This document shows, one piece after another, positions 20,246 through 64,000 of a stretch of DNA of 64,000 nt (position 1 is its first letter; every line of letters begins with the position of its first letter). A program made the translations under genes and the position numbers. The DNA is from Spinellus fusiger (Eukaryota > Mucoromycota > Mucoromycetes > Mucorales > Phycomycetaceae). Where the stretch lies: the NCBI GenBank assembly GCA_025094145.1, contig JALLLS010000004.1, forward strand, positions 186,001 through 250,000, in the 5' to 3' direction. The notes beneath the pieces are model-generated. The model made no database searches and was not told the origin of the DNA. It was given only the letters and a program-made list of their open reading frames with translations.

Positions 20246-21957
20246 ATGGAGCTGTGTGTCTGTAATCTGAAAGCACTCGGTGCGTTTGACTATGTGGCTG
20301 CTACCAAACTAGCCACCCGCCTTATAAAGGTGTACCAGCCACTTGGCAACCTCTTCATTAAACTTGGCAGTGGTGAAGGTCTCTACACTCAACTGTCTTA
20401 TATGAAGCCAAAGTGGTTTATGAGAAAAGACTCTGTAAGGCACTCTGGGTGTCCATGAGAAAAAGACTCACCACAATAGTTTGTGCTCTCTCATTACGCC
20501 AACCTCACAGAAGACATAACACGAGAAATAACAGTACTGGAGGCGTCTCCTATGCTTGTTCTTCCCATGGCAAAGTCAACACTTGTTTTGCTACTCTATA
20601 GTATGAGTGAGTTTTGTCAAGCACGACAGCGACTTATTGCCATGTAAGAGAAAGAAAGAGATGGATCGATTAGCAGGGACAAACGGGTAGTGAACAAGGC
20701 AAGAACTTACTTTATGTATGTGTGTATGTGTATGTATTTCTATTTCTATTTCTATGCACAGATACCAATCCATGGCAGCTCAGAGCAATTACACAGCTAC
20801 AACTTCAATGATAAAAGAGCTCGTCTCTATTGATATAGCCTATAAAGAAGCCTGTATTGGAGACACATTGGATCTATTAGGAACAGGCATAGAGAAAGAG
20901 ATCAGTATTCTTCTCTCTCTGCTCAGAGCACGCATTGCTGTCATTGATTATGCGTTTCAAGATGCCTGTATTGCTCTGTTTGTAGCCAAACAAGACATCT
21001 ACCATTGGAAGATGCTCTGTGAAGAACAAGACTATCTAGAGGTAATCGTGATAGGTGAATCCCCTAATAACCTCTTCTTCTGCTGTAGAAAACCCTTCTT
21101 TCTCATGAACAGTCCCGAGATACCCTGTCTTGGCGATTAACACTGTTTGGAAACACATCCGATGTAAGTCAGTCTTCTTACTCTAATATATAAGATAGCA
21201 AATACATTAACACACATACAAGATGAAACAGAAACAGGGACATTCCTGGCCTCATACTCTGCGATGGATGGCACGCTACTTGGATAACCTGACTGCCAAA
21301 ATGACCCTCTATTTCAGTTCATTGCTTGTCCCCAAAGAGAGTCTCATAACAGAGGAAGATCCTGAAAAGGCACTATGGAAAGGACTGCAGGTGGACTACC
21401 ATGACCAGTAAGTAGGGAAAACACATCCTAGGGGTAGGTGTGGATTGCAGCTTATATTCAGTAGCTGTGTTATGCCAGGATTTGTACTTTTAGCAGACGT
21501 TCCAATGCATTCAGCATCAGTTTAGTCTATGAAGTCACCTCTACACCCTTTTATCCTCAAGGCTATGTTTGCTCAGACACACCCTATGAAGCGCCTCAGG
21601 GAATTCACTCTTTCCCTTTCATTTACTGCTATCCAAAGGTAAGCAGTATCTGCCAACCATTACAGCTCACACACAAGGCAATAGCAACCTCCCAAAGATC
21701 ATCTGCCAAATATCATCTCTATCATTCAAGGATGTCACCAGAAACTCAATGATCCCAAGGGAAGCCCTGTCTATTTCTATGATAACAAAATCACAAGTAC
21801 CTATTACTTTATGCGTGTGGATGAGCATGTTGTTTTTGTGATTATCTATCTGGACAGACATCTCCATGCTGAGCCCCCCACCAGTGACTTTATGGTGTCC
21901 GTTGTGTCTTCTCTGCGCGGGTCTGCTGTGATTGCAGAGCTAGTACGGATGGACTGA
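20246..21957 (+). CDS. KICS2: KICSTOR complex subunit 2 homologue (KICS2 / C12orf66 family)
   Basis: A multi-exon plus-strand gene. Splicing yields an N-terminal helix set (LGAFDYVAATKLATRLIKVY, YMKPKWFMRKDS), then after a 45-nt intron FVLSHYANLTEDITREI and FCQARQRLIAIYQSMA. Next come DIYHWKMLCEEQDYLE, a conserved MTLYFSSLL segment, PYEAPQGIHSFPFIYCYPK, HLPNIISIIQGCHQKL and the C-terminal FYDNKITSTYYFMRVDEH ... SVVSSLRGSAVIAELVRMD stop. The order and the FYDxKxxSTYxxxR block follow the human KICS2 family. In animals KICS2 is part of KICSTOR, which holds GATOR1 at the lysosome so that TORC1 can be shut off when amino acids or glucose fall. The start at 20246 is the first in-frame ATG in an open exon; an upstream exon is possible. 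Confidence 0.85.
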
Positions 21958-58360: not shown

Positions 58361-60652
58361 TCAAGTAGCACGCCTGCTGAGGAATTCCATGACAGCCTTT
58401 GTTCCTTGGTCAAGAAGCGCAGGACGAGGCACTCGGAAACTAAAAAAAAAAAAAAAGGACAGTGGATCAGATGCCTGCTCTATTCTACTAGCGTTGGAGG
58501 ACAGACATGGCGCATTTTACCTGTTGCCATAGAGCGTCAACTCCTTCAGGGTATGGACCAGCCCCAGCTCAGGCGGAACATCGTCAATAGCATTGAATCC
58601 AAGGTCAAGGATCTCCAGATGGTCAAAGCACTTTGGACGGAGGGTGACAAGGCGGTTGTTGTCGACCTTGAGGACTCTGAGGCGAGGGAGACATGTAGCA
58701 AGGGTGTCTGGGAGATCCACCAGATGGTTGTGGCTTAGGTGGAGTTCCTCCAGACAGGGGAATGAGCAGTGTGTGCCTGCTGTGAGGGTTTTCATGCTGT
58801 TGTTGGAGAGATTCAGGGCCTTGAGACAGGGCAGTACCAGTGCATCGATGCTGAGGGATATGTCTTGTAGGGCATTGAATTGAAGGTGCAGATTCACAAG
58901 GGTAGTGGCAAAGCACCCAAGAGAGGCAGGAAAGACAGACAGTGCGTTGTGTTCTACAGCATGCATTTGGGTTAGTTGAGGGAGTGGCGAGGATGGAGCA
59001 GAGACGACCTACGCAATTGGATGTTGATGGGAGAGTAGGTGAGCTGGAGAAGCATTGGGGCAGGCAGTTGGTGCAGGTTTTGTTGAGCCAAGTCAAGTGT
59101 CTTTGCAGTGATGGATCGTTGGGACTGAGCAGGAAGAGGAGGGCCTGTGTAGGGTGGTTCTGTTGGAGGGGAGGGTGTTTTGCTTGGTGTTTGTTGGACA
59201 GGAGCACTGCCACCGAGAAGAGCAGTGTCTGTTTTCTCTTCTTCTTTCTCTTCTTCTTCCTTCCCTTCTTCTTCCTCACACTCTCCTGTCTCAATGGCAT
59301 GCCACTGTGCTCTCAGCTGTCCAATAAGCTCCCCACTGGTGGTTCCCTTGGGAATCGACCGCATCAGATTCCCCTCCCATGTCACCACCTCCAATTGAGG
59401 TAGACGTCCTATACCCACAGGCAATGTCATGAACCGATTGGACCCCAAGTCCAGTCGCTTGAGGGTCTCCAGCTGGAAGACAGCCTCTGGTAAGGTGTTC
59501 AGATCATTCCAAGACACATCCAGGGTCTGGAGACAGGGTGCTCCCTGCAAGAGACGGAGATGGGCCTGGCCCAGTTGGTTATGCGACAGGAACAACTCCA
59601 GCAGCTTGGGCAGGTGAGGGGGCTGGGGTTGCTGAGAGAGCTCCTCCAGTGCATTGTGGCGGGCATCCACGCGTGTCAGTTGAGGAAAGCGTCCCTCTAC
59701 ACCACCACCCACAACATGAGCAACCCATTGGCCTGTGTTCCCTCACTTACCTTGTAGAAGCACCCTCAGTCGGTTTTCACTCACCCGCAGCTCCTCTAGG
59801 CACACCATGTCCTTCATCTCAGGCAGTGCTGTCAGCTGGTTGGCATTGGCGTGCAGTCTGCGCAGCTGTGGTCCAAGCACAGGCAGTGCCGTGAGCTGGT
59901 TGTTCCCCACCAGAAGAATCTCCAGACACTGTCCCAAACCACTCGGGAAACATGTCAATTGGTTGTGCGACATGTCCAGCTCACGCAGCTGGGACATCTG
60001 AAGAAGGACATCCGGCACCGTCTCAAATGCATTGTGGGGCAGGTGCAGCACAGTGAGGTGCTTGAGAAGAGCCAGGGTGCTGGGCAGTGCCTGCAGTCGG
60101 TTGTTTCTGAACTAAACACGCCCCCCATACCAGCCAATGAATAAGTCCGTGGCAGGGTACATGACTCACATCCAGCACAGCAAGAGCACCAAACGCCTCG
60201 CCAAGACGGGCATCCACCTCCACCAGCTGGTTGTCGTTGGCCAGCAGCTTGGTCAGCTCCACCTCATCATACCACGCCCCTGCTGAAGAAGAGAAATCAA
60301 CCACTATCTTGTGGGGATCGACGTGGTACATGGTCAGCACCTCTTCAGGGAGCCGCTGTAGGCCGTTGTTGCCAATACTCAGCTTGCCAGAGTGTTTGGC
60401 CTGAGCAATGGCGGCCTTGATGGGGAGACTTGGCTGGAGTATGCCGGTGCCAAACGCCTCGTCTCTGTCGCAGTGGGCGTTGGACGTGTACTGCTGGCGG
60501 CCTGTCATGACCTGTCGTGTTCTGACAGGGGCTTCTTTCTCTGCTACGTGGCTCTGTTTGGGGGCTCTTCTCTGTTGAGCAAGGAACTCGCGTAGTCCCT
60601 CAGTAGCACTGACAGGCTTCCCGTTGACTTTGGCTGGGGTACGTGGTTGCAT
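58361..60652 (-). CDS. Leucine-rich repeat protein, LRRC40-like
   Basis: Exons on the minus strand begin MQPRTPAKVNGKPVSATEGL. A family-specific N-terminal block follows (KLSIGNNGLQRLPEEVLTMY; AWYDEVELTKLLANDNQLVE), then about 20 leucine-rich repeats such as LTVLHLPHNAFETVPDVLLQ, LRELDMSHNQLTCFPSGLG, LKRLDLGSNRFMTLPVGIG and LKALNLSNNSMKTLTAG. An acidic linker (EEEEGKEEEEKEEEK) splits the repeats into two groups, as in LRRC40. The last exon reads FRVPRPALLDQGTKAVMEFL then SRRAT stop, matching the LRRC40 C-terminus. Its function is poorly known in any organism; LRR proteins usually bind other proteins. The promoter is shared head-to-head with sestrin, and a pure-purine run (60654-60760) is directly upstream. 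Confidence 0.87.
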
Positions 60653-61121: not shown

Positions 61122-63678
61122 ATGAGCCAAGATCTTCACGAACAGCAGCATGTGGAAGAGCAAGGTAAGCAGCACGCTCTTCTCCCCCTTTGTCACCAAG
61201 AACACATAACAACCAACGTCCGTTCTAGCCCGCGACACCCGTGCACGCCAACTCCAGTCCTCTCGCCTCAGAATCGCCCTGTTCAAGAATCTCCAAGTAG
61301 AGTCTCCGTCCGAAAGAGGCCATGCCTTGGAGAAGATTATCCAAGTGGTCAAGTCATTTATGCGAGTGGCTCATTCTCCCTCTGCATCAGACACTGGCGC
61401 TGACACGGACGAAGACGGCACGGACGAACAATTGCAGTATCTGCTACTGACCATGCTACGTCTTGCCCACACATGTCCATTCAGCGACGTGCGACAGACA
61501 TGCCAGGAGTTTCTTGATAGAACAAAAGCAAGTGGATGTCCTTTTTATTATTGTTTTTATTGTTTATTGTTTATTATTATATATATATCTATATATATCT
61601 ATATATGTCTATATATATATATATCTATATTGATGATGATTGTTTATTTCTCTCTTTCATGCTATTTTGCAAGGCACCACCTACCCACCCACTCACCATC
61701 CAAAAGAGAGAGTAGAACACTAATACAAGTGTTGCTATAGAACACGTCGATACCCGTGCCCCACCCTGCCCATCGATCGCCCTCTTCTTTCATCAGTGCA
61801 CAGGACATCTTCTCACTTGAATCCACCAGCTCCTATCCTCTGGTGAACTACCCACGCCCCGCCAATCTGTCGTTCTCGCCCTGGTCCCATGAGGCCGAGA
61901 CAGAGGGCATGGACGAGCCCTTTGACGTCAAACTGCCACAACGACTGACTCGCAAAGACAGCAAAGAGGCAGGCAGACCAGCAGATGAGTATGTACGGCA
62001 ACTGATGGTCAAGACATTTGTGGACGAAGGCAGACTTCTTCATCTGTTCCGGGTCATGGTGTTCTTTCCTACCTTTTATGAAATCTTCAATGTCACCTAT
62101 ACCAAGACCGTCAAAGCCACCATTGGACCACTGCATAGAACATGGCGGTGCTATCTAGGCATCATGGTAAAAGAAAAAGAAAAAGAAAAAAGAAAGAAAA
62201 AAGAAAGAAAAAGAAGAACAAGAAAGGGGCTCACTAAAGGACATCAAGTAGACAGCAGCCGAGCAACAATGCCAATACCTTGTGTCAATACTGAAGCTGG
62301 ACTTCTTACAGGCAGGAGGCGATCCTGCATGGCTACAGGGCCGTGCCTGTCCCCCTAAGCTCTGGAAGCTGTCGGGTCTGATCAAGAGAATGGCCCGCCA
62401 GCCATGGAAGTTGCATCCACGCGACCTGAGTGAGTGGATGGGGGCGGCTGCTCCTGGTCTGGCATGGACCAAGGGAGAGCTCGTCCATGCTGTGTTGGTG
62501 ATCACTACCTTTTTGGGTCTCAGCAGTTTTGTGCTTGGGTGCGGCATTTCACCCGAGCTGGACATGCGAGGAGGATTCACTGTCAGTGGAAACAGTGCCA
62601 TGGATGGGATTGAGCAAGAGTTGAGCCAGCACTGCTGTTTTCTTCCCGACAAGGAAGAGCAGGAAGAAGCAGAGGAGGAATCGGAAGAAGAGAGTCACGG
62701 TGCCACAGGTTGGCAGGGAGAGACGCCTCTCCATGGTCCCCGATTAGAGAAGAAGGAAGAGGAAGAGGAAGCATTGGATTTGGATCTGGAAAAGAAACGC
62801 ACAGTTGAACTGATTCACCGACTCAAGGCCAAGGATCCAATCAAAGAGGAGTGGCAGGACACTCTAGGGAAACTGCAGCTATCTGAGGCACAGGAAACAG
62901 CCGGGCCATGTCTTGGTAAGGGCGGTGTGGGGTTTATTTATAAATCCATCCAGTGATTCCAGTGGATGGATGACTCCCAAGAATATTGGCATAATAAATG
63001 AATGTGTATTTATAGAGACACCGTCCACCACTCACGACAAAGACCATGGACTGGCCAACCGGGTGCTAGAAGACCTCACCCGATTTGCTCCTCCACAGCC
63101 ACAGTGGGAGGAAGAAGAGCCATTCACATCGCATCCCAACCACCAGGAATTCATGCTGAGTGAATACTGCTGGGAGGACCATGGCTGTGATCTTGTCAAT
63201 CACTTTCTGCCTGAAATAGGTGATGATCTTGACGATGAGTTTAATGAAGCCCTCAGTATCACCGACTGGAGGTAGTGTTTCTATTTATAGCCTCCAGTGA
63301 GAATAAGAGAGAGAGATCTCTGGAGTTGTAGAGTGTGTGTTTTTACTTTTTCTCTTTGTTAGTATTTTCCATCCTGTCGCTGACGGTGCAGTGGACACTT
63401 CTCCCCTCAGACATGCTATCTGGTTTTATGTCCAGCAGCTGTATGGTGTGACAAAGGAAGACTACCACTACCCCGACATTGCCCTGTACTTGAGCCAGCG
63501 CACAAAAGAGTACATTAACAAGGTGTGTCGGCAGCCTCATCTTATCCAGCGCAGTGACTGGCATTCGATGGGGATTTCATTCCGTCCTGAGGAAAAGTGC
63601 CATATGAATTTGCTGATAGCCTCTGCCAAGAAACAAGCCCTGTTGTGCTATGGGCTTTGGCTCATTTCCGAGGTCTAA
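61122..63678 (+). CDS. Sestrin
   Basis: Six or more exons. The start is MSQDLHEQQHVEEQ. The N-terminal domain reads LLLTMLRLAHTCPFSDVRQT, EYVRQLMVKTFVDEGRLLHL and GPLHRTWRCYLGIM. After an intron it continues TAAEQQCQYLVSILKLDFLQ then AGGDPAWLQG, the sestrin A-domain with its active-site Cys and Tyr, but Leu sits where animal sestrins have the relay His. The B/C part has GELVHAVLVITTFLGLSSFV then LGCGI, an acidic linker, and the C-terminal domain SITDWSIFHPVADGAVDTSP, LRHAIWFYVQQLYG and EEKCHMNLLIASAKKQALLC. The intron after DRTK has a GC donor (GCAAGT, 61527 to about 61803) and an AT microsatellite. In animals sestrins bind leucine and GATOR2 to control TORC1. Confidence 0.92.
61527..61803 (+). 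other. GC-AG intron in sestrin gene
   Basis: The exon ends CTTGATAGAACAAAA and is followed by GCAAGTGG. The acceptor is GTGCACAG before GACATCTTCTC. Joining reads LDRTKDIFSLEST in frame. The interior holds an (AT)n/TATC tract at about 61576-61632. Confidence 0.65.
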
Positions 63679-63915: not shown

Positions 63916-64000
63916 ATGAAGTTGTCTTTCTTTGTCGCTGGTGCTTTGGCCCTCTTCTCTACAAGCAGTCTTGTCAGTGCTGACAGTCTCCAGGATCAGA
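63916..64000 (+). CDS. Secreted or ER protein, 5' end only
   Basis: An open frame from ATG to the window edge, 28 codons. MKLSFFVAGALALFSTSSLV followed by SADSLQDQ is a textbook signal peptide with a likely cleavage after VSA. The product cannot be identified from this fragment. Confidence 0.6.
   Translation, partial: MKLSFFVAGALALFSTSSLVSADSLQDQ

Follow-up and report, generated by a model that had tools for sequence, protein, structure and literature searches.

A sestrin gene in the window

The window, a stretch of 64,000 nucleotides from the fungus Spinellus fusiger, carries a sestrin gene on its forward (+) strand, and all the features of this gene described below lie on that strand. From ATG to stop, the gene spans 61122..63678 and encodes a protein of 667 amino acids in six exons (61122-61164, 61229-61527, 61741-62166, 62252-62915, 63016-63271, and 63363-63678). 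In a Pfam search, the protein matched one family, PA26/sestrin (PF04636), over residues 196-664 with an E-value of 1.2e-86 (291.9 bits vs. a cut-off of 29.4). The best solved relative in the Protein Data Bank (PDB) was human SESN2 (its three best sequences had E-values between 3.9e-52 and 5.4e-52), and two AhpD-like helical halves are present in the one chain. Judged from sequence, the match to the sestrin family is no chance resemblance. When the 38-Mb genome was searched with the sestrin family, this gene was the only match. By family and place, the protein is an ordinary sestrin, correctly read from raw sequence in an earlier note on this DNA, whose coordinates, strand, and residues hold.

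The NCBI protein P0001 ('PA26 p53-induced protein-domain-containing protein [Spinellus fusiger]'), which matches the window protein at 98%, represents the same gene and is identical apart from 13 residues absent just before intron 2 (61528..61740). Intron 2 alone is of the GC-AG type (donor AAA/GCAAGT, with the slash at the splice junction), introns 1, 3, 4, and 5 being GT-AG, and the shorter deposited protein would result if splicing used an in-frame GT donor at 61489 in place of the GC donor at 61528. The 13-residue stretch carries VRQT..EFL, which is present in the consensus of the relatives, and the GC-AG model is preferred because the relatives keep this segment.

For comparison, two protein searches provided 49 different proteins (P0001-P0049). 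The fungal-type set consists of the window protein and P0001 to P0048 (49 rows); P0049, a metagenome protein with animal-type latch residues, is included only in the 50-row counts. A first alignment contained 43 proteins and the window protein (44 rows). The fungal-type rows include fragments and some species twice (e.g., Radiomyces spectabilis and Chlamydoabsidia padenii), and they are related rows rather than independent events. According to taxonomy look-ups, Spinellus belongs to the Mucorales in the Mucoromycotina, and three named organisms of the set are also Mucoromycotina; we take the remaining named organisms to be the same. The vertebrate set comprises the 120 listed of 1383 matches, all vertebrate where named. 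None of the compared sequences bears the name of a protist, chytrid, or invertebrate, and the wider picture is taken from a published survey.

The AhpD-like half and the missing histidine

The Sesn-A domain, which is AhpD-like, covers residues 196-364 (61984..62575, interrupted by intron 3). It contains the motif C263-Q264-Y265 (62270..62278), in which C263 and Y265 correspond to Cys125 and Tyr127 of human SESN2. Of the Cys125, Tyr127, and His132 set of the Sesn-A alkylhydroperoxidase, the Cys and Tyr are thus present, and the place of His132 is occupied by L270 (62291..62293), the Leu seven residues after Cys that the earlier note had pointed out. The PDB chain numbering equals the human numbering; C125, Y127, H132, T374, T377, T386, R390, D406, D407, W444, and E451 all land at the right positions.

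The same state is found throughout the relatives. His132 is replaced in all 44 rows of the first alignment (Leu in 23, Met in 15, Phe in 3, and Gln in 3), and position 132 is non-His (L, M, F, Q, and others) in 49/49 fungal-type rows. Cys125 and Tyr127 are kept in 44/44 rows and, with P0049 included, in 50/50. All 120 vertebrate rows keep His132, together with His86 and Tyr375. In the survey, His132 was present in 1.9% of 213 non-metazoan entries, of which 90.1% had Cys125 and 91.5% had Tyr127, and in 82.2% of the metazoan entries. Since so few non-metazoan sestrins have it, the missing His is the usual state outside animals, and no event is tied to Spinellus fusiger. The survey authors suggest that His132 was gained in metazoans. 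In the prokaryotic AhpD-like protein YP_296737.1, the equivalent position is a His (PMC4674687), so that regain and repeated loss are both possible histories.

A catalytic His conserved at another position, which the earlier note had listed as a finding that would speak against its reading, was looked for in all rows in columns −14 to +14 around Cys. No conserved His column was found there, and a displaced catalytic His was rejected. A His two residues before Cys occurs in 14/49 fungal-type rows and in P0049. It is no substitute because human SESN2 has it too, as do 120/120 vertebrate rows.

In human SESN2, the proposed relay consists of Tyr127, His132, and His113 and is described from AhpD, and each of the mutations C125S, Y127F, and H132A brought the in vitro activity to the level of the inactive control, leaving TORC1 suppression undisturbed (PMC4674687). 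The window protein has Leu at 132 and Cys at 113, and both columns vary among the relatives. One might suppose that the protein is nevertheless a working peroxidase that relays through other residues, in which case the missing His would say little; the retention of Cys125 and Tyr127 in 50/50 rows and the Glu at human position 122 in 37/44 rows agree with this. However, there is no conserved His near Cys, the column of the remaining relay residue, at position 113, holds T, C, S, I, and others, and human H132A alone gives control-level activity (PMC4674687). We regard a working peroxidase as quite unlikely, and the AhpD-like half, with its Cys and Tyr but no relay His, is probably structural or weakly redox-active.

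Clamp, lid, and putative GATOR2-binding surface

The Sesn-C domain covers residues 522-664 (63147..63666, interrupted by intron 5). The clamp residues Thr374, Thr386, Arg390, and Glu451 of human SESN2 are all present as T560, T575, R579, and E640, which bears out the equivalences in the earlier note. The lid T560-D561-W562-S563 (63261..63363; intron 5, 63272-63362, interrupts the S563 codon) aligns with human T374-Y375-N376-T377, so that Tyr375 is Asp and Thr377 is Ser, also as noted earlier. The segment from T575 to R579 (63397..63411) includes L578 at the place of Leu389, and E640 to H643 (63592..63603) corresponds to Glu451 to His454. The Trp444 that had been described as shifted by a few residues is resolved by the alignment: position 444 is G633, and the Trp, W629, lies four residues upstream at the place of Tyr440 (63559..63573). 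F636 aligns with F447. The partner of Tyr375 in the human latch, His86, is replaced by F223 (62065..62067). The His86-Tyr375 latch and Trp444 are therefore absent, with F223, D561, and G633 in their places. Of the human DDYDY motif, which binds GATOR2, the acidic pair is present as E595-D596 in EDYHY (63457..63471), D596 standing at D407 and E595 replacing D406, and the WSLAE motif, proposed as a GATOR2 contact in humans, is represented by WTKGE (W328, T329, and E332; 62465..62479). The H86 to F223, N376 to W562, and D406 to E595 changes were absent from the earlier note, as was the N-terminal domain described below.

Among the relatives, T386, R390, D407, E451, and H454 are kept in 41/41 rows with letters (the other three of the 44 have none), and the acidic pair is Glu or Asp followed by Asp in the same number. 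Positions 86, 375, and 376 are Phe-Asp-Trp in 49/49 fungal-type rows, and of the 120 listed vertebrate rows, 116 have His-Tyr-Asn, three have His-Tyr-His, and one has His-Tyr-Arg. Position 444 is Gly in 42/42 fungal-type rows with letters, all of which have Trp at the place of Tyr440, and the Phe447 position is mostly Leu. The alignment with other Mucoromycota sestrins, which the earlier note had proposed as a check, thus came out with Thr386, Arg390, and Glu451 kept in the rows with letters and position 132 non-His in every row. In P0049, the latch is His-Tyr-Asn, position 132 is Ser, and position 444 is Gly; because an animal-type latch is mixed with Ser132, the latch and the His are separable. 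Of the non-metazoan entries of the survey, 45.1% have Ser at 377 and 25.4% have Glu at 406.

In human SESN2, the His86-Tyr375 contact seals the lid, and Leu389, Trp444, and Phe447 lie under the leucine side chain, according to reviews that cite the leucine-bound structure (PMC11429811, PMC8533411). Both latch partners are replaced in all rows; with the aromatic residue in the lid and the aromatic residue moved by four residues, this suggests a closure that works but differs from the human one; the constancy of the clamp residues argues against a dead pocket. As the residues clamping the amino and carboxyl groups are fixed while the latch and floor change, leucine specificity of the fungal-type sestrin is, on the alignment, not assured. 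The earlier note had inferred that amino-acid sensing may be kept while oxidoreductase activity is lost. Sensing would still be the most likely function, but a loss cannot be assigned to this fungus, His being usually absent outside animals. Taken as a whole, with leucine sensing intact and oxidoreductase activity secondarily lost in this fungus, that account is very unlikely: the His in YP_296737.1 and the relay described from AhpD (PMC4674687) allow the His to be ancestral at depth, but about 98% of the non-metazoan survey entries have no His132, leaving no loss tied to the lineage, and the pocket is remodelled rather than intact.

On balance, we consider that the protein probably works as a sestrin of a Spinellus-type mucoralean fungus, binding GATOR2 and releasing it in response to an amino acid, with a changed lid and floor and an AhpD-like half without the relay His. 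Amino-acid sensing through GATOR2/TORC1 is the most likely function. With an empty pocket, the sestrin would bind GATOR2 through E595-D596 and the WTKGE surface, and GATOR1 would then be free to switch TORC1 off; a free amino acid in the pocket would cause GATOR2 to be released. E640 and R579 would hold the amino and carboxyl groups of the amino acid under the T560/S563/T575 lid, which presumably closes without a His86-Tyr375 latch over a recut side-chain floor. Because of the recut floor and the missing latch, the affinity, and perhaps the specificity, may differ from those of human SESN2.

Several points weigh against this interpretation. In the literature searched, we found no binding or genetic data on this protein. 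The lid has low confidence in the predicted model, with a predicted local distance difference test (pLDDT) score below 50 for residues 563-567 and 569-571, and Foldseek without trimming gave root-mean-square deviations of 10.9-17.9 Å to the 5dj4 chains and 4.2-6.0 Å to the GATOR2-bound chains, so the relative placing of the protein parts is uncertain. The proposed GATOR2 contact D364 is Asp in the window protein and Val in 22/49 rows. By analogy, Gly in place of W444 could weaken leucine binding, because W444E, combined with E451Q and R390A, was used to lock human SESN2 in the apo state (PMC12136191). The genome contains a LeuA-type leucine-biosynthesis match, and the need for leucine sensing is therefore not obvious. 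Furthermore, SEH1, part of the SESN2 docking site, is reported as missing in Mucoro- and in three further groups of early fungi (PMC11836306).

Alternatively, the protein may bind GATOR2 without sensing any amino acid; it would then inhibit GATOR2 constitutively or on stress induction, with its abundance as the control. Such a role would fit a published proposal in which leucine sensing became refined only in the metazoans, and it would be compatible with the kept GATOR2 motifs, the Gly at 444 in 42/42 rows with letters, and the replaced latch in 49/49. The invariance of R390, E451, and T386 in the rows with letters and the Asp-Trp of the lid in 49/49 rows argue against it, since such constancy exceeds what a dead pocket would need, though the related rows are not independent. 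We therefore judge this role unlikely and prefer the amino-acid-responsive sestrin. A more novel idea, which we also judge unlikely, is that the mucoralean sestrin is a TORC1 sensor in which the clamp is kept and the lid and floor are recut (a lid with Asp and Trp, Gly replacing Trp444, and Trp four residues away), and which reads a non-leucine amino acid or a broader set in fungi making their own leucine.

Besides LeuA, genome matches over the cut-off included Mios (GATOR2), NPR2 and IML1 (GATOR1), and KICS2 (KICSTOR). No Castor1_N match was found in the genome; the control likewise matched nowhere, so the absence of CASTOR1 is not established. The KICS2/C12orf66 homologue, another TORC1-pathway gene, is also located in the window, some 40 kb upstream of the sestrin gene, with exons at 20694-21954 (+); one exon matched PF09404 with an E-value of 5.7e-13 (48.8 bits vs. 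a cut-off of 22), and a second open frame (5.3e-4) was below the cut-off. The immediate neighbours were partly read by eye. A leucine-rich-repeat gene (58975-60652, − strand) is divergent from the sestrin gene; its part 58975-59742 matches Pfam LRR models, and further open frames upstream place its likely start near 60652, roughly 470 bases away from the ATG of the sestrin gene. On the other side, an open frame with a signal-peptide-like start begins at 63916-64000 (+) and is cut by the window end.

The N-terminal domain and comparison with known sestrins

A helical domain of approximately residues 14-113 (61161..61524, spanning intron 1) precedes Sesn-A. Residues ~3-114 form four helices in both predicted models, and in the second model the mean pLDDT of ten-residue blocks is 77-93 except in the loop 59-63. 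Of the 49 fungal-type rows, 40 were used to build a profile; the remaining nine, one of them from Jimgerdemannia, begin further in. At E ≤ 1e-3, this profile matched 67 of the 69 listed vertebrate sestrins of at least 530 amino acids and none of the 51 shorter ones, although the set is bird-rich with near-identical sequences, and the 67 are not independent cases. The matches were mostly named sestrin-1, and two (P0076 and P0153) were named sestrin-2. The best E-values in the controls were 0.18 for 600 shuffled sequences and 4.6 for the vertebrate proteins from residue 131 on. Removal of the PSxFI segment, which also occurs in short forms, left the result unchanged (67/69 vs. 0/51; best E-value 2.1e-11, median of the 69 5.2e-5). 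Profile-to-profile alignment of the fungal and long vertebrate N-termini by hhalign gave 98% probability over 87 columns (E-value 2e-13), and P0049 also carries the domain (1.7e-6). By sequence comparison, the domain is homologous to the N-terminus of the long vertebrate sestrins, which suggests an old part of the protein kept in both; a role in partner binding is a guess. Residues 1-65 are not defined in the SESN2 crystal structure (PMC4674687), a review describes the N-terminal tails of sestrins as less conserved and disordered, and no description of such a domain was found in the portions of the literature searched.

The presence of sestrin in Mucoromycota has already been published (PMC11836306), and the core of the finding, a missing His with a partly kept pocket, is the known state of non-animal sestrins, published as family statistics. 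In its main text, the survey mentions Tyr375 and His86 a single time each, for animals, and Asn376, Tyr440, and Trp444 are not mentioned there. What goes beyond the literature examined is the uniform lid and floor change and the N-terminal domain, which are modest additions. In the same 2025 paper (PMC11836306), early fungi are inferred to sense leucine because they have sestrin; the uniform changes make this inference testable and could reveal how an amino-acid sensor changes its ligand. P0049, given its organism, would help to set the polarity of the latch and His132.

Compared with human Sestrin2 (5dj4, 5t0n, and 5cuf; GATOR2-bound 9lvj and 9lwf), the window protein carries H132L, H86F, Y375D, N376W, T377S, W444G with Y440W, D406E, and S190T, three additional lid-loop residues, the extra N-terminal domain, and a longer linker with acidic runs between the halves. 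It resembles the other Mucoromycotina sestrins (Phycomyces, Mucor, Rhizopus, Umbelopsis, and others) in Phe-Asp-Trp and the non-His residue at 132, which itself varies among them, as well as in the N-terminal domain of the 40 rows; their Phe447 position is mostly Leu. With the long vertebrate sestrins it shares the homologous N-terminal domain, whereas the vertebrate rows retain His132, His86, and Tyr375. Of the prokaryotic AhpD-like peroxidases 2prr, 6k40, and 3c1l, residues were compared with 2prr (YP_296737.1), which has a Cys pair and the relay His, in contrast to the single Cys and missing His of the window protein.
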